Shown piece after piece: positions 30,940-38,664 of a stretch of 64,000 bases of DNA. The position numbers and the translations under genes were made by a program. The notes beneath the pieces are model-generated. The model was not told the DNA's origin, made no database searches, and saw only the letters and a program-made list of their open reading frames with translations. Positions within the stretch are counted from its first letter, which is position 1. The number at the start of each line of letters is the position of its first letter. The stretch comes from Tautonia plasticadhaerens (GTDB lineage: Bacteria > Planctomycetota > Planctomycetia > Isosphaerales > Isosphaeraceae): positions 3,224,001 through 3,288,000 of the forward strand of contig NZ_CP036426.1 of assembly GCF_007752535.1 (NCBI RefSeq), read 5' to 3'.

Positions 30940-31042
30940 ATCGCCAAATGCCCCTGTTTCCACGATCATCACAGTTTCCCAGGATGACCCGGTGACGGAG
31001 CAGCCCCTCGGACTCGCCTCAATTTCCCGGAGGATGATGCTC

Positions 31043-32047
<1,005 letters not shown>

Positions 32048-32133: not shown

Positions 32134-32622
32134 TCACCGTCGCCTCAGCGTGAGCTCGATGAATTGCCGGCCGGGGGGGCCGTCCTGCAGCGTGTCGTAC
32201 TGGCGGAAGGTGAGGACGACCTCCTCGGGGTCGTCGAGCCGGACCGGGATGATCTGGACCTGATCGACCCGGCCGAGCACGCCTCCAGGGCGGGGGTTGT
32301 ACCGCTCCTGCTCCTCCGGGGTCATCTTGCGGACGTCGAAGGAGAAGCGCGGGGGGGTCGAGTCGTCGAAGAAGCGGCCGAGCTTGGTGACCCCCTCGGA
32401 CCGGGACGCGACGAGGTCCCAGCGATAGGTCGTGGGCTGGACGGGCAGCATGATCTCGATCCGCTCCCCCGCCCGCCAGTCCAGGCGCTCGACGACCTCC
32501 TCCCGGAAGGCCCAGAGCCTCCCCTCGTCGTCGACCTGCGCCCCGGCCGTCGCCCCCAGGGCCAACACGATCGCGGGGACGACGACGGCGATCGCCCCGC
32601 TGCTAGGGATATGACGCGCCAT
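32134..32622 (-). CDS. secreted chagasin-like (I42) cysteine-protease inhibitor candidate
   Basis: 162 residues from ATG 32622 (CGGAG upstream; an earlier ATG at 32670 has no site). A signal peptide (SSGAIAVVVPAIVLALGATA, cleaved near GAQ) is followed by a compact domain. AGERIEIMLPVQPTTYRWDL closely resembles the opening of chagasin/I42 inhibitors, whose loop NPTTGY enters the protease active site; here it reads QPTT-YRW, with the glycine missing. RPGGVLG and VVLTFRQYD may correspond to the second and third inhibitory loops. The adjacent upstream gene on the same strand encodes a papain-like protease, the target class of I42 inhibitors. The family call is by motif and context, not a computed match. 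Confidence 0.55.
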   Translation of the reverse strand: MARHIPSSGAIAVVVPAIVLALGATAGAQVDDEGRLWAFREEVVERLDWRAGERIEIMLPVQPTTYRWDLVASRSEGVTKLGRFFDDSTPPRFSFDVRKMTPEEQERYNPRPGGVLGRVDQVQIIPVRLDDPEEVVLTFRQYDTLQDGPPGRQFIELTLRRR

Positions 32623-32716
32623 GGCCTGACTCCGCTTTCCGGGGACGCCGAACGATCCGCGACCACTCATCGTCCATTGTCGGGCCGAGCTGCGCCCCGA
32701 TCAAGTTGCGCACGAG

Positions 32717-32762
32717 GACGCCCCTCTTGGCCCGCGAGCGCTCGCGGGCCAAGAGGGGCGTC
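32717..32762. terminator. 46-bp perfect palindrome downstream of the protease gene
   Basis: Two 23-base arms (32717-32739 and 32740-32762) are exact reverse complements with no spacer. The left arm begins GACGCCCCTCTTGG and ends CGCGAGC. The palindrome lies 47 bases after the stop of the minus-strand protease gene and 95 bases before the start of the inhibitor gene. As RNA it would fold into a stem of about 21 bp with a tight loop, so it is a strong transcription-end or mRNA-processing structure between the two genes. No T-run follows on the minus strand. Confidence 0.6.
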
Positions 32763-32809
32763 AAGCCGGCCTGGGCTCCGAAGGCCGGTGGGAGGCGGGG
32801 GCCGTTCGA

Positions 32810-34804
32810 TCAGGGCGATGGCGTCTCGGGGGACCTGGCCCCGGCCTTCGGGTCCGCCTGACCCTGGTCCTCCCGAGGCTGGGCCGACGGCTGCTTCGGG
32901 TCGCCGAGGGGAGGAACGCCCTCCGGCACCCCCGGGGGGCGAACACCGCGTTCCATCGTGTTCGGGTCGTAGGTCTCCCCGGACCGATGGGAATCCCCGG
33001 GGGCTCCCCCGGGCTCGATCGCCTCGCGGTCCATGCTGCCCGGGTCGATGCTCCGGGACGGGATGGCGTCCGGCTCGTCGGGATAGGGGGAGACCGGCCC
33101 CCGGGCACCGTCCCGAGGGGCGACCGGCACCGGGTCCTCGTCGCCCGCGGAGGCCGGGGGCGCCGAAATCATCCGGTCCGGGCGTCCCAGGAGCATCGAC
33201 CCCCGGTTCAGGTTCCCTTCCTTCAGGAGATTCTGCAGGGCTTCGAGCCGGCGCGTGGCCAGCTCGGAGGCCTGCCTGGCGTACTCCAGCTCGGCCTGAG
33301 CGGCGCTCTGGCCCGTCTGCTTGTACCGATCGAGCTGGTCCACGTTCTCGTCGCGGAGGTCGATGAGCGAGTCGTTCAGCAGCGTCCGGGCCCACTCGTG
33401 CGAGTCCAGGGCAATCCGGGCGGCGATCGCCGCGCGGCGGGCGGACCGGGCGGCCTCCCACTCGGCGTCGATGGCCCGCCGGCGCTCCTGCTCGGCCTCC
33501 CCGGCCAGCCGGTCAGCCTCGAACCGATCGTCCTGGGCCCTCCGGAAGGTGGCATAGGCGTCGTCGTCGTAGTACGCCTCGGACGAGCCGGCCATCGTCC
33601 CCACCCCGGTCTGGGTGTTGGTAGCAGTGGACGCGAGGGAGGTGGAGGCCCGGCTGCCCCGCACCCGGGGGGTGCTCACCCAGGCCGCGCCGAAGCCGAT
33701 GTTGTTCTGCTCGTAGGCGACCCGGGCAAAGCCGTCCTCCCCCCAGTTCGGGCCCCACGAGTTCTTGATGATCCAAGCGCCGCCGTTGTTGTCGTCCCAG
33801 CCGACCAGCAGGACGGCGTGGTTCACGTCGGCCAGGGCGCCGGCCTGCGGGGCCCTCGACGGTAGTTCCCGGTACACGCCCCCCCGGTACTGGAGGAACG
33901 TCGGCGTGGCGTTGATGGCGATGGCCAGGGGGCCGTAGCGCACCAGCGCCGCCTTCAGCCGGTCCCGCTGGGCCGAGGTGGTCGGAACCTCGTTCCGGCC
34001 AAGGACGTAGCCCCAGTCGATCGCCGTGAACACGCCCCGAAGGCTCCGGACTCGGGTCCGGTCCTGCCGATCGACCTCGTAGGGCTCGGCGCGCTCGCCG
34101 ACCGTGCCGTAGCTGCTGCCCGTGTCCGACTTCGGGACCAGGAAGTCGAACGCCCACCAGCCGCCCTGGCAGGTGCCGGCGCCGCTGGCGTCGAGGATCC
34201 GCTTCTCGGAGACGTTGTACAGGAAGTCCCCGCCCGAGCCGGTGCCGGCACTGGCCAGGGCCAGGGCCGACTCGTACGCCCCCGCCGTGCCGAACGCCCA
34301 GCACGAGCCACAGTTGAGCTGGTTGCGGGGGGGGGTCACCATCTCCCGATCACGCCAGTCAAACCGCCGATCCGTCTCGGAGCCGACCGTCCCGGGGCTG
34401 CTGAGCGTCTGCGCCTGCTCATCCGGGACGATGCCCTGGGCGATCTGCTGCTGCAGGACGTTAACGTCCAGCCCAGTCACCCGCAGCAGGCCCCGCTGGG
34501 CCGCAGCGTTGGCGTCCTCGTTCCCCAAGATCCCCCGGGCTGCCGCAACCCCCGGATCCCTCCCCTGGAGCTTCAGCCCCTCGGTGACGGCCAGTGCGAA
34601 GACGTCCGTCGGCCCCAGAGTCGCCCCCCGCACCTCCCTGACGCGGACGACCTGCCCCAACTGCTGCTGGACCGGAGCGATCTCCCGCTGGACTTCCGCA
34701 CTCAGCTCCTGCCTCGCCCCGGCCACCCCCGGTGTTAGGGCGATCGCCGCCGCAATTCCGAGCCATCCACAAACCGTCCGCCAGTCCCGGTCGACACGGA
34801 TCAT
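32810..34804 (-). CDS. secreted papain-like (C1 family) cysteine protease
   Basis: 664 residues. The signal peptide (VCGWLGIAAAIALTPGVAGA) is followed by a propeptide-like region of about 110 residues. The C1 catalytic domain (about 145-380) has NQLNCGSCWAFG with nucleophile Cys about 168, VNHAVLLVGWDDN with His about 329, and AWIIKNSWGPNWGEDGF with Asn about 348; the oxyanion Gln is in PPRNQLNCGS. After it come a predicted coiled coil of about 150 residues (AGEAEQERRRAIDAEWEAAR, ARQASELATRRLEALQNLLK) and a Pro/Gly-rich, probably disordered tail. All catalytic residues are intact. GGGGAGGG precedes ATG 34804. Exported to periplasm or surface; likely regulated by the inhibitor candidate downstream. 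Confidence 0.9.
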   Translation of the reverse strand: MIRVDRDWRTVCGWLGIAAAIALTPGVAGARQELSAEVQREIAPVQQQLGQVVRVREVRGATLGPTDVFALAVTEGLKLQGRDPGVAAARGILGNEDANAAAQRGLLRVTGLDVNVLQQQIAQGIVPDEQAQTLSSPGTVGSETDRRFDWRDREMVTPPRNQLNCGSCWAFGTAGAYESALALASAGTGSGGDFLYNVSEKRILDASGAGTCQGGWWAFDFLVPKSDTGSSYGTVGERAEPYEVDRQDRTRVRSLRGVFTAIDWGYVLGRNEVPTTSAQRDRLKAALVRYGPLAIAINATPTFLQYRGGVYRELPSRAPQAGALADVNHAVLLVGWDDNNGGAWIIKNSWGPNWGEDGFARVAYEQNNIGFGAAWVSTPRVRGSRASTSLASTATNTQTGVGTMAGSSEAYYDDDAYATFRRAQDDRFEADRLAGEAEQERRRAIDAEWEAARSARRAAIAARIALDSHEWARTLLNDSLIDLRDENVDQLDRYKQTGQSAAQAELEYARQASELATRRLEALQNLLKEGNLNRGSMLLGRPDRMISAPPASAGDEDPVPVAPRDGARGPVSPYPDEPDAIPSRSIDPGSMDREAIEPGGAPGDSHRSGETYDPNTMERGVRPPGVPEGVPPLGDPKQPSAQPREDQGQADPKAGARSPETPSP

Positions 34805-35169: not shown

Positions 35170-36552
35170 TCAATGACGATTAATTGCATGATGATGTGGA
35201 GCCCCCTGGGATGAGGGGCGGACCCCGGGGGGCTCGGGAGGCGTATGGGGGAGCGGGCAGGGGATGGTGCACGACTCGTTGCAGGGTACGGGGGGGGCGA
35301 GCAGCGTCGGGGGGATCTGCGTCGACGGCTGGGCCAGTGGGACCGCCGAGGTGGTCGAGATGGTGGTCATGCCCGGCGAGGACGCCTGGGACAGCGGCGC
35401 CTCCAGCGTCGTCTCCTGCTCGGAGACGATCCGGACCCGGCCGAGCCGCGTCAGCCGCTCGCCGAACCGCGCCGCCGCCGAGGCGAGCATCCCCGGCCCC
35501 CGGACCCGCACCCGGCTCCTCGACGCGCTGGTCGGCAGGTTCATCTGCTGGTTCGACACCGCGGCCAATTGGGTCGGCTGCGCCGCCAGGGCCATCGTCG
35601 GCGGGGCCGCCGCCATCATCATCGGGGACGGCTGGGCCGCCATCATCATCGGGGACGGCTGGGCGGCAACCATCATCGCAGACGGCTGGGCGGCCATCAT
35701 CTGCGTCGGCTGCGGCGCCATCGCCAGTTGGCTCGGCTGCGAGGCCGGCAGGAATAGGTTCGGCGTGGGGGCCGAGGCCGGGGCCATCGCCATCACCTGC
35801 TGCTGGGGCACGTACACCATCGGCGACTGGGCCGGGGACATGAAGACCTGGGGCGCCTGCTGCTGGATGACGAAGTTCTGGCTCGGCACCGAGATCACGC
35901 TGGCCGGGGTCGACGCCATCTGGGGCACCATGGACATCATCATCGGCTGGCCGTACTGCGGCGTCGGGCTCCCCGACGGGACGCTCGGCGTGGAGTAGCT
36001 TTGCGGCGAAGGCAGCGACTTGTCGGCGTGCGACGCCTGCACGAGCGCGGGGTCGGCCATCGGCCGGCCGGCCGAGGCCGAGGCTGAGGCCGGCGGAGGG
36101 GGCGACAGTTCGCCGAGCCAGCCGGCCAGGGCCGCGACGCTGGCGCAGTCCTCGTCCGTCAGGTGCCGGACCAGGCCCGAGTCGCCCAGGCGGTAGACGA
36201 CCGCCGTCGGGAAGGTCGCCACCCCCATCGCCGAGACCAGTTCCGGGTCGTCCTCGGCGACCAGCTCCAGCACCTGGACAAGCCCTCGGTGTTGCCTGGC
36301 CCATTCGCCCTGGAGGAACTGGCGGGCGAACTCCGACGAGGCGGGGAGCCGACGGGAGGTGATGAGTAACACCGCCGGCACGCCCCGGTCGCGGGTCATC
36401 GCCACCGCAGAGCGAGCGGTGGAGCTCGCCGCGGGAGCCGTCGTCTCCGAGGCGAGGGCCCCGGCGGGCGTGAGCCCCGACCAGGCCATCGCCGAGGCGA
36501 TCGCCATCGCGACCGCGATCCTCCGATTCGAGCAGGTCACCATCATCTTCAT
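35170..36552 (-). CDS. secreted thioredoxin-fold-like protein with Met/Gln/Pro repeat region
   Basis: 460 residues from ATG 36552 (AGGA five bases upstream). The signal peptide (AVAMAIASAMAWSGLTPAGA) is followed by about 100 residues resembling a thioredoxin fold: GVPAVLLITSRRLPASSEFA, VQVLELVAEDDPELVSAMGV and ATFPTAVVYRLGD, the last matching the cis-proline region. No CxxC is present, so it would not be redox-active. The remaining 300 residues are low-complexity: Pro/Gln/Ser, then tandem AAQPSPMMM units, a basic patch (SASRSRVRVRGPGMLASAAA), and a Cys-containing, His-ending tail. Probably a cell-surface protein; function unknown. Confidence 0.65.
   Translation of the reverse strand: MKMMVTCSNRRIAVAMAIASAMAWSGLTPAGALASETTAPAASSTARSAVAMTRDRGVPAVLLITSRRLPASSEFARQFLQGEWARQHRGLVQVLELVAEDDPELVSAMGVATFPTAVVYRLGDSGLVRHLTDEDCASVAALAGWLGELSPPPPASASASAGRPMADPALVQASHADKSLPSPQSYSTPSVPSGSPTPQYGQPMMMSMVPQMASTPASVISVPSQNFVIQQQAPQVFMSPAQSPMVYVPQQQVMAMAPASAPTPNLFLPASQPSQLAMAPQPTQMMAAQPSAMMVAAQPSPMMMAAQPSPMMMAAAPPTMALAAQPTQLAAVSNQQMNLPTSASRSRVRVRGPGMLASAAARFGERLTRLGRVRIVSEQETTLEAPLSQASSPGMTTISTTSAVPLAQPSTQIPPTLLAPPVPCNESCTIPCPLPHTPPEPPGVRPSSQGAPHHHAINRH
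35606..35712 (-). repeat. tandem 27-base coding repeat (about four units)
   Basis: Units of about 27 bases carrying ATCATCATCGGGGACGGCTG on the plus strand repeat four times with increasing divergence. They encode AAQPSPMMM/AAQPSAMMV-type units in the minus-strand protein. Two adjacent units are nearly identical. Confidence 0.7.
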
Positions 36553-36680
36553 CCCCGTCCTGGAGTTTCGGGGCGACATCCTGTCGCTCGCCGGACACCG
36601 ACGCCATCAATCCACACCGACTCGTCCCATCGGGGCTGGCCCCTCGGCCCAGCTCCCCCGGCCCTCGTCCCCGGCTTCGA

Positions 36681-37976
36681 TCACTTGAGGGACCGCCCGG
36701 AGGCCTCCCGGAAGGCCCGTGCCAGGGCCTGGAACTGGTCTTCCATCCGCTCGCGCTGGGGTGGGGTCAGCGGGCGATCCATGCTCGCCGGCTGACGGAC
36801 GTCCAGGCCGACGGACTGCATCTGGGCGATCGTGAATCCGGTCAGCGGCTGGAGCAGCGCCTGGCTCCACGCGAGCCGCCGGGCCGGGTCGCTCGGGATC
36901 ACCACGTCGAGCCGCCGGCTCAGCTCGCTCTGCGCGTCGCCGAAGCTGGTGTAGAGCGTCGAGCGTTCCGCCACCGCCTGGAAGACGTCGGCCACCTCCC
37001 CGGCCAGCCGATCCCCCTCCGCCAGGCCGGGCAGGGCCGACGCCACCACCGCTTCGGGGCTCGTCACCGCCGGGTCGTTGGGTGGGGCCGATCCGGCCAT
37101 CGTCGCCGGGGAGGCGGGATTCATCGTCCCGTTCATCGCCGCCGGGGACAGCCCGCTGCCCATCGGCGCGGAGCCGACCAGCACCGAGACGCCGTCCGGC
37201 TCGCTGATCTCCCCGCCGACTCCCACCACCAGGGCGAACTGGTAGAGCCCCTGCGCCGTCGGCACGAACGAGTAGTACTCCCGCTCCTGCTTCGGGGCCA
37301 GGATGGGCGGCCCGGCCACCTGGATCCACCGGAGGACGAGCCCCGAATCCGGCCGGCTGGCCGACCCGTTGAGCGTGACCCGGTGCCCGACCAGGCCGAC
37401 CTGGTCGTCCCCCGCGTCGGCCCTCGCCGGGCCCGACGGCTCGCCCCCCTCCACCGGGACGACGAACCGGACGACCCGGACCGCCCCCGCCCTGGCCTCG
37501 ATCCTCAGGAACGAGAGCCGGGACGCCCCCCCGGGGACCTCGACCTCGACGGTCCTCCCGTCCGGCCGTTTCAGCTCGACCCGGGGCCCTTCGACCTGGA
37601 TCCACCGGTACAGGTCGGCCGGCTCGGCCTCGCCGTCGGCGATGTCCAGCTCCACGGTCGAGCCCGGCTCGGCGAGCTTGCCCGCCTTCAGGCCCGCCTC
37701 GGCGTAGGAGACGGCCGGGATCCCCTGCGGCCCACGGTCGTCGCCGAGCACGGGGGAGAACCCCGGATCCGACGGCGGCGGGACGACCACGTCCGGGCCC
37801 CCCCCCGGGGTCCCCTCGGCCCGGGAGATGACCGACGGCGGCAGATCAACCGGCCCGGGAGGCGGCACCTCCTGCGCCCGAAGCCCCGGCACGACCACCA
37901 TCACAATCAGCCCCAGCGCGGCCCTCGTCGATCGAGGCCCGCCGGGTCGCGGCCTGTCGCAGGTCTCGGCGATCAC
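36681..37976 (-). CDS. secreted protein with PKD-like domains, function unknown
   Basis: 431 residues from GTG 37976, preferred because GGGAGG lies seven bases before it and it yields a signal peptide (RAALGLIVMVVVPGLRA). Residues about 95-180 and 185-290 look like two immunoglobulin-type units. The second is a good PKD-like match: ADAGDDQVGLVGHRVTLNGS, LVLRWIQVAGPPI and YYSFVPTAQGLYQFALVVG. The first also contains RWIQVEGPRVEL. A Met/Pro/Ala linker leads to a helical C-terminal part (ADVFQAVAERSTLYTSFGDA, MEDQFQALARAFREASG). Such domains are usual in surface adhesion or binding proteins. A longer upstream frame exists but reads as noise. Confidence 0.65.
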   Translation of the reverse strand: MIAETCDRPRPGGPRSTRAALGLIVMVVVPGLRAQEVPPPGPVDLPPSVISRAEGTPGGGPDVVVPPPSDPGFSPVLGDDRGPQGIPAVSYAEAGLKAGKLAEPGSTVELDIADGEAEPADLYRWIQVEGPRVELKRPDGRTVEVEVPGGASRLSFLRIEARAGAVRVVRFVVPVEGGEPSGPARADAGDDQVGLVGHRVTLNGSASRPDSGLVLRWIQVAGPPILAPKQEREYYSFVPTAQGLYQFALVVGVGGEISEPDGVSVLVGSAPMGSGLSPAAMNGTMNPASPATMAGSAPPNDPAVTSPEAVVASALPGLAEGDRLAGEVADVFQAVAERSTLYTSFGDAQSELSRRLDVVIPSDPARRLAWSQALLQPLTGFTIAQMQSVGLDVRQPASMDRPLTPPQRERMEDQFQALARAFREASGRSLK

Positions 37977-38664
37977 GATTGACCTCCCTGCCGGATCGCG
38001 TCCGATTCGCAATTCCACCCCAAACACAACCATCCTGCCCGTTGTATCGACCGCCCCGGGACGGCAGCGTTGGGAAAAGATGGCGATTCCCCCCCGCCTC
38101 GCGTCCCCCGGGGCCCGGTCGCCCCCCGACCCCCTCGGGACCACTCCCCCGCCGGTCGCCGGGTGCGACCCCCGACCGGGGTCCCGCCCCGGCCGGGCCC
38201 GCACCCCGACCATTCGACGCAATCCCCCTCCCACACATGGATTTCGCAACGGGCCCGGCACGGAAGCCTCTCCGGCCCCGTGCCGAAGCCCGGGCCCTCC
38301 GGCCCCCTCCCGCCATTTCGGATGACTGCCGAGACGGGATTTCACGATGATTACGTCGGACGCACGAGTAGGCCGGCGGCCGTGTCTCCCCCCTTCGGGC
38401 CGCCCCCGACCCGAGGCCGACCCGGATCCGCTCCTTGGCAAGCCGAATCGCCCCCCTTCCGCTCTTCGCTCCCCGGGGACCGGCCGTCAGGGGTCCCGTC
38501 CTTGGCCCTCGGACGATCCGGGCGCCTGGCGGCATCGGTTCGCGGGCAACCCGAGGTACCCTCGCCCTCGCCGAACCGGGGATCGGGGTGTCGCCCAGCC
38601 CGAGGCAGCAACCGTCCCCGGATGATCCGCCACCCCGTCCGCCGCCGACCACGCCCTCGTTCCC

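Follow-up and report, generated by a model that had tools for sequence, protein, structure and literature searches.

A papain-family protease and a chagasin-like protein encoded side by side in Tautonia plasticadhaerens, a candidate exported protease-inhibitor pair

A stretch of 64,000 nucleotides from Tautonia plasticadhaerens (contig NZ_CP036426.1, hereafter the window) carries two neighbouring genes, one for a papain-family (C1) peptidase and one for a small protein related to the chagasin inhibitors (MEROPS I42, PF09394). We consider it fairly probable that these genes encode an exported protease together with its cognate, likewise exported inhibitor. This is supported directly by the intact catalytic residues of the protease, the I42 homology of the small protein, the linkage of both genes within the family Isosphaeraceae and recurrent linkage or fusion of the same two domains in other bacteria. 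In the proposed mechanism, the papain-like enzyme would be exported as a precursor and the small protein separately from it. Loops of the small protein would then wedge reversibly into the active-site cleft, by analogy with chagasin and cathepsins, and the enzyme, whether periplasmic or on the cell surface, would stay inactive until inhibitor-free. Export of both proteins is read from their sequences; we infer that the small protein may bind and inhibit the window protease, and that the benefit of the pair would be self-protection or timing.

The protease and the small I42-like protein

The sequence-only reading of this locus had described an intact C1 protease followed on the same strand by a small secreted protein close to the I42 signature. 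Both open reading frames (ORFs) were recovered on the minus strand, and all three catalytic residues named there, Cys168, His329 and Asn348, proved correct by residue check (Table 1). The protease consists of a signal-peptide-like N-terminus, a pro-region of ca. 100 residues, the catalytic domain, a charged tail and a Pro-rich C-terminus. Its PF00112 domain scores 137.5 bits (E 9.3e-40) against a Pfam cut-off of 20.7 and contains the motifs GSCWAF (residues 166-171), VNHAVL (327-332) and IKNSWG (346-351). The catalytic triad and the oxyanion Gln162 align with conserved columns of related C1 proteins, which together with the above-threshold Pfam match places the enzyme in papain family C1A (cathepsin L/H/K/S-like); cathepsins are its closest solved relatives. 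Unlike papain C1A enzymes, it has the charged tail, for which residues 418-538 gave only a sub-threshold HlyD match (E 0.13), the Pro-rich C-terminus and a pro-region with no recognised I29 domain, no I29 family being found among its Pfam matches at E<=10. To our knowledge, an I29-type propeptide is not required of prokaryotic C1A enzymes. One cysteine pair is missing as well: Cys206/Cys249, presumably a disulfide, is present in 26 of the 28 C1 proteins compared and replaced by A206 and R249 in the window protease, and a C1 protein of genome G035 likewise lacks both cysteines. The 9.4 Mb window genome encodes two C1 genes at E<=0.01.

The small protein probably starts at M17 (32622), which is followed by a signal-peptide-like stretch, and the N-termini of both proteins read as Sec-signal-peptide-like and hence as putatively exported. 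With matches listed to E 10, Pfam gives a single family for the small protein, Inhibitor_I42 (PF09394; E 0.0091-0.0077, 16.7-16.9 bits). The sequence GERIEIMLPVQPTTYRW noted earlier is present, and the reported absence of the glycine of NPTTGY holds, with loop 4 reading QPTT-YRW in our alignment A3. One copy exists in the window genome at E<=0.001, and a protein encoded next to the protease in a genome of another genus (G014) shares 40% identity over 107 residues (E 1.5e-13). Because of this conservation beside the protease and because I42 is the sole Pfam match, the resemblance is more than chance. A PADLOC search of the window pair returned no match.

Profile comparison and structure prediction further support descent of the small protein from the I42 family. 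Using hhalign, a profile of the window and G014 proteins matched 17 linked I42 domains of other loci at 91.1% (E 1.1e-6, 95 columns), and a profile of four counterparts did so at 94.8%, over only 38 columns around loop 4, while three neighbour genes used as controls gave 0.1-0.5%. AlphaFold2 guided by alignment A3 predicted a largely all-beta protein (mean predicted local distance difference test (pLDDT) 71, predicted template modelling score 0.65), with core blocks mostly at pLDDT 74-90 and lower values in an insertion at ca. residues 80-117. When the model was compared with the PDB by Foldseek, the first seven matches were all I42-type inhibitors (amoebiasins, PbICP-C and P. aeruginosa ICP; E 1.4e-4 to 2.8e-3, probability 0.99-1.00), with T. 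cruzi chagasin at rank 13. VIA-align gave Z 8.3 for 3m88 and 7.3 for chagasin 2nnr, unrelated PAD domains following from Z 6.7 down. The I42-type fold expected from the sequence-only reading is thus matched first, as a consistency check rather than independent proof, since alignment A3 brings I42 relatives into the model. Every one of the 25 sequences in A3, comprising the window protein and 24 linked domains, has a PF09394 match at E<=0.01. Based on the stronger I42 matches of same-place counterparts (see below), the controlled profile comparison and the guided model, a diverged descendant of the chagasin lineage is the supported assignment.

Table 1. Coordinates of the gene pair and surrounding features in the window
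Feature	Positions	Strand	Basis or remark
C1 (papain-family) peptidase gene, 664 aa	32810..34804	-	ORF list; PF00112 9.3e-40
Catalytic domain PF00112, residues 146-369	33698..34369	-	Pfam search; residues checked
Cys168	34301-34303	-	residue check
His329	33818-33820	-	residue check
Asn348	33761-33763	-	residue check
Charged, Ala/Arg/Glu-rich protease tail, ~residues 411-535, coiled-coil-like	33200..33574	-	sequence reading
Small I42-like protein, 178 aa (162 aa from M17 at 32622)	32134..32670	-	ORF list; PF09394 E 0.0091 / 0.0077
I42-like domain with insertion relative to canonical I42 (~residues 80-117 of 162)	32137..32529	-	own profile, alignment A3, model
Loop-4 position QPTTYRW (canonical NPTTGYxW; Gly column = gap)	32419..32439	-	alignment A3
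Perfect palindrome between both genes, 23+23 nt (46 nt)	32717..32762		no T-run after it on minus strand
Gln/Val/Gly-rich neighbour, conserved C-terminal part, convergent with small gene	30992..32047	+	E 8e-17 to L046 6189-7145 (same place, G014)
NB3: thioredoxin-like N-terminal part and Gln/Met/Pro-rich region	35170..36579	-	sequence comparison
NB4: PKD-domain protein, start codon uncertain	36681..38441	-	PF22352 1.3e-07

Linkage of C1 and I42 genes in Isosphaeraceae and other bacteria

Conservation was analyzed in 148 related genomes and in the 45 genomes of Isosphaeraceae. Among the 148, the protease query matched 10 genomes and the small-protein query four, the window genome (G000) included in both. 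Two of the four small-protein matches are weak and partial (G037, E 0.0026; G061, E 0.005 with two stops), and no C1 domain was found in their fetched surroundings. Within the family, 17 of 45 genomes carry a C1 gene at E<=1e-5 and seven a strong one, defined as PF00112 E<1e-30 (G000, G007, G011 with two, G014, G020, G035 and G040). In all seven, an I42-like gene lies adjacent on the same strand or is fused, six cases being recognised by Pfam. The seventh, in G020, has no Pfam I42 match, and its assignment rests on hhalign (93.7%) and position. E-values for PF09394 in the linked counterparts are 1.3e-4 (G007), 0.014 (G014), 0.0025 (G035) and 2.7e-21 (G040), and 1.1e-13 for a C-terminal I42 domain fused to C1 in G011; I42 is the only Pfam match in the small proteins of the window, G014 and G035 and the best one in G007 and G040 and in the fused G011 domain. 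In three genomes of the same genus (G001-G003), neither the two queries nor the two families matched, with the flanking genes NB4 and NB3 still present, so that protease and small gene seem to come and go as a unit. The proposed gene pair is therefore conserved in every strong-C1 Isosphaeraceae genome, and the linkage extends to other bacterial phyla.

To cover other bacteria, we used 80 C1 loci, the best of at least 532 from a contig scan with the protease alignment whose two patterns lie in the catalytic domain. This non-random sample spans numerous phyla of bacteria as well as some archaea; L066, which duplicates the window locus, was left out and the Singulisphaera sp. GP187 locus (L088, genome G011) kept. 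An I42 domain is fused or within 1.4 kb in 21 of the 80 loci (20 besides Singulisphaera), L140 having been dropped from an initial 22 (E 0.086 with our own profile; its genome gave no Pfam match). The seeds of our own I42 profile included the window sequence, and a match of all nine seed domains is therefore inevitable; the Pfam scans serve as a separate check. All 21 linked loci are bacterial (cyanobacteria, proteobacteria, Acidobacteriota, Bacteroidota, Chloroflexota, Myxococcota and others) and comprise seven one-polypeptide fusions and 14 separate genes, 11 of these on the same strand. With up to 6 kb of flanking DNA retrieved, none of the separate I42 genes was more than 1.4 kb away from the C1 domain, and the chance of all 14 falling within 1.5 kb would be ca. 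10^-6.4 if they were evenly placed in the fetched DNA.

Starting from the inhibitor, a PF09394 scan of 79 of the 80 genomes (all except that of L133) yielded 55 domains in 38 genomes (28/50 plus 10/29). Thirty-five of them (22/36 plus 13/19) are fused to or at most 1.5 kb from a C1 domain, eight of these residing in one genome (G216) and four (L170, L177, L181 and the minus-strand one in L182) being negative with our own profile and placed by the Pfam search; unlinked domains were checked within ca. 3 kb or to the contig end. Further, pairwise distances between C1 domains correlate with those between the I42 partners (r 0.44 over 26 pairs, and 0.47 over the 20 non-Isosphaeraceae pairs), with none of 10,000 permutations as high in either case. 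L088 and G020 were excluded from this test and L069 was represented by the I42 domain nearest C1.

The window pair thus appears to be a diverged variant of a widespread bacterial C1-I42 cassette. We propose tentatively, and with less assurance than for the window pair itself, that bacterial chagasins are largely dedicated partners of their own papain-like proteases and that this was the original role before host-directed and parasite chagasins. The forms of such a module would include gene pairs, I42-C1 fusions, a seemingly dead C1 carrier and an intracellular ImmA/IrrE-I42 regulator. The idea that a linked I42 domain replaces the I29 propeptide was rejected, as I29 does not tell the linked and the unlinked C1 group apart: it was found in 0 of 28 linked C1 proteins at E<=0.001 and was absent from the 25 families listed, out of 76, for 59 unlinked ones.

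Inhibitory loops and alternative readings

Several results weigh against a functional protease-inhibitor pair. The Pfam score of the small protein lies below the curated cut-off of 27.2 bits, a genome-level PF09394 scan of the window genome gave no match at E<=0.1, phmmer of the small protein against the PDB found no chagasin, and single-sequence AlphaFold2 gave no fold (pLDDT 33.7). The TM-scores of the first seven Foldseek matches of the guided model are modest (0.34-0.41 by query, 0.42-0.57 by target). As for linkage, 12 of the 14 weaker family C1 genes have no adjoining PF09394 match (the two in G031 and G035 adjoin an ImmA-I42 gene), 59 of the 80 C1 loci have no linked I42, 20 of the 55 I42 domains are unlinked, including four of the archaeon Methanospirillum, and no linked case is archaeal. 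Shared species history may explain part or all of the distance correlation. The perfect palindrome between the two genes, whose core (32722-32757) is single-copy in the genome even when up to 3 mismatches are allowed, argues against a simple operon, which is accordingly unsupported, and makes tight co-transcription doubtful. No terminator-like site was called at this palindrome, and long intergenic hairpins were also folded, without shuffle control, in G007 and G020.

The inhibitory loops are a further point of this kind. Compared with the motifs NPTTG, GxGG and RPW, as named in a section of PMC5014320, the window protein reads QPTT-YRW, GVLGR and RQY, and we therefore call it I42-like rather than a canonical I42 member. 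Loop 4 has lost its glycine and kept both threonines, and loop 6 is RQYD instead of RPWE, so that affinity may be low. Loss of the loop-4 signature is concentrated in the family: of the linked I42 domains, 3 of 6 from Isosphaeraceae retain G[YF]xW, against 18 of 20 others (a count made without G020 and with L069 scored by the I42 domain nearest C1, which lacks the motif its other two domains keep). It is lost in the window, G014 and G035 proteins, and G020 reads QMPLWW. The drift in the window protein could mean either that the contact was remodelled together with its partner or that the protein has moved to another role. Most linked domains elsewhere keep the loop motifs (e.g. NPSTGY, RPWE), and the plain reading is therefore that they inhibit the C1 domain next to or fused with them. 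No relation between the protease motif (CGSC, CGCC or CGDC) and the inhibitor loops was seen by eye.

A small protein that is I42-derived but non-inhibitory, acting as folding helper, carrier, anchor or allosteric partner, is a rather unlikely alternative. Loop-4 decay within the clade, the extra insertion of ca. 35 residues in the window protein and a fusion in Singulisphaera sp. GP187, where I42 is joined to a C1 domain with its catalytic Cys changed to Asp next to an intact C1 gene, would all fit such a role. However, the window protein still has both threonines of loop 4 and, in loop 6, an Arg-x-aromatic (RQY), and I42 loops tolerate some change: according to part of PMC5014320, a double-Ala loop mutant of Cip1 was still partly active.

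Less probable still is an inhibitor aimed at foreign C1 proteases of predators, competitors or hosts, the linkage reflecting shared regulation only. According to parts of the same paper (PMC5014320), Pseudomonas Cip1 inhibits tomato proteases and most Pseudomonas genomes have no C1A protease, and I42 genes with no C1 gene in the fetched surroundings occur, for example, in G028, G100 and G132 (the stretches of the latter two ending at contig ends). This reading is opposed by the recurrent fusion or close linkage of I42 with a C1 gene of the same genome in various bacterial phyla and by the joint absence of protease and small protein from same-genus genomes. Finally, the sub-threshold Pfam score and the lack of a fold without alignment could suggest a motif resemblance by chance in an unrelated beta-sandwich, which is very improbable given the separate I42 matches in same-place counterparts, the controlled hhalign comparison and the fold search.

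Related arrangements, neighbouring genes and known systems

In Singulisphaera sp. GP187, the fused gene (L050:7372-10092, plus strand) combines a C1 domain reading CGSDW, presumably inactive, with a near-canonical I42 domain, and immediately after it comes an intact C1 gene that resembles it closely. The fused gene fits a dedicated inhibitor carrier or, alternatively, a regulator. Proteins with I42 domains in tandem, encoded beside C1, were observed in G040 (L049:9559-10386, minus strand; two nearly identical copies) and Microcoleus (L069:4519-5649, plus strand; three domains). A second arrangement, in G035 (L063:6750-11425, plus strand), G031 (L061:5438-10642, minus strand) and G141 (L064:7353-10313, minus strand), consists of an XRE-type regulator, an ImmA/IrrE metallopeptidase with C-terminal I42 and a C1 gene, in this order. 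The C1 gene has no obvious signal peptide and overlaps by 4 nucleotides in G035 and G141, and the arrangement is apparently cytosolic. The G035 regulator pair scores capH/capP-like in PADLOC and the next gene there is weakly thymidylate-synthase-like (E 1.9e-4, under cut-off), and the G031 locus includes a 5-hmdU DNA kinase/MazG gene. These loci look like a DNA-modification or defence operon in which the regulator carries a protease inhibitor.

Around the window pair, the Gln/Val/Gly-rich neighbour has no Pfam match. NB3 and NB4 stand beside protease and small gene in G000, G007, G020 and G035; in G014, NB4 is beside the pair and an NB3-like gene was recognised by reading only. In G040, NB4 has another location, and a search of G011 did not find it. 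NB4 relatives occur in 21 of the 45 family genomes, 15 of which have no strong C1 gene, and 11 of the 12 loci examined without the protease pair have both NB3 and NB4. Thioredoxin_2 was matched only by the G007 relative of NB3 (E 0.015, under cut-off). Conceivably, the low-complexity proteins NB3 and NB4 could be protease substrates.

The known chagasin family comprises T. cruzi chagasin, Leishmania ICP, the amoebiasins, P. aeruginosa ICP and P. syringae Cip1. The window protein resembles these in its modelled I42-like fold, profile similarity and expected target class (C1), and resembles the Pseudomonas members also in its signal-peptide-like start. In contrast to the family, its gene adjoins a C1 gene of the same bacterium, and in contrast to canonical members it combines the altered loops 4 and 6 and a partial GxGG with the insertion. 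Staphopain and staphostatin genes are linked, and staphostatins act inside the cell. As proposed for the window pair, the Staphylococcus system (C47/I57) joins a secreted cysteine protease with its own dedicated inhibitor, with another inhibitor fold and protease family; the window protein, unlike staphostatins, looks exported. Sections of PMC7863939 describe the staphostatin binding mode and the three-loop arrangement by which chagasin blocks C1 enzymes.

The chagasin papers we found treat protozoa, P. aeruginosa and P. syringae. In a passage of PMC2784779 (2009), which cites Rigden et al. 2002, C1 proteases of prokaryotes are given as the natural targets of chagasins, and the idea of an own protease as target is therefore not new. 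According to the same text, tests up to then had used a eukaryotic target alone; it also reports a stefin-chagasin fusion from Bacteroides. Part of PMC5014320 regards the function of chagasins in bacteria as an open question, and an excerpt of PMC10380794 describes multidomain prokaryotic C1A peptidases as numerous and leaves them unanalysed. Linked or fused bacterial C1-I42 genes were the topic of no title or abstract start in the literature searched, which covers the field in part; domain-architecture databases probably list such fusions. Linked and fused C1-I42 genes would give the own-protease idea genomic support and provide ready cognate pairs for the bench, in which inhibitor loops vary naturally while the partner is known. 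They would also be relevant to how bacteria avoid harm from an exported papain that has no classical propeptide.

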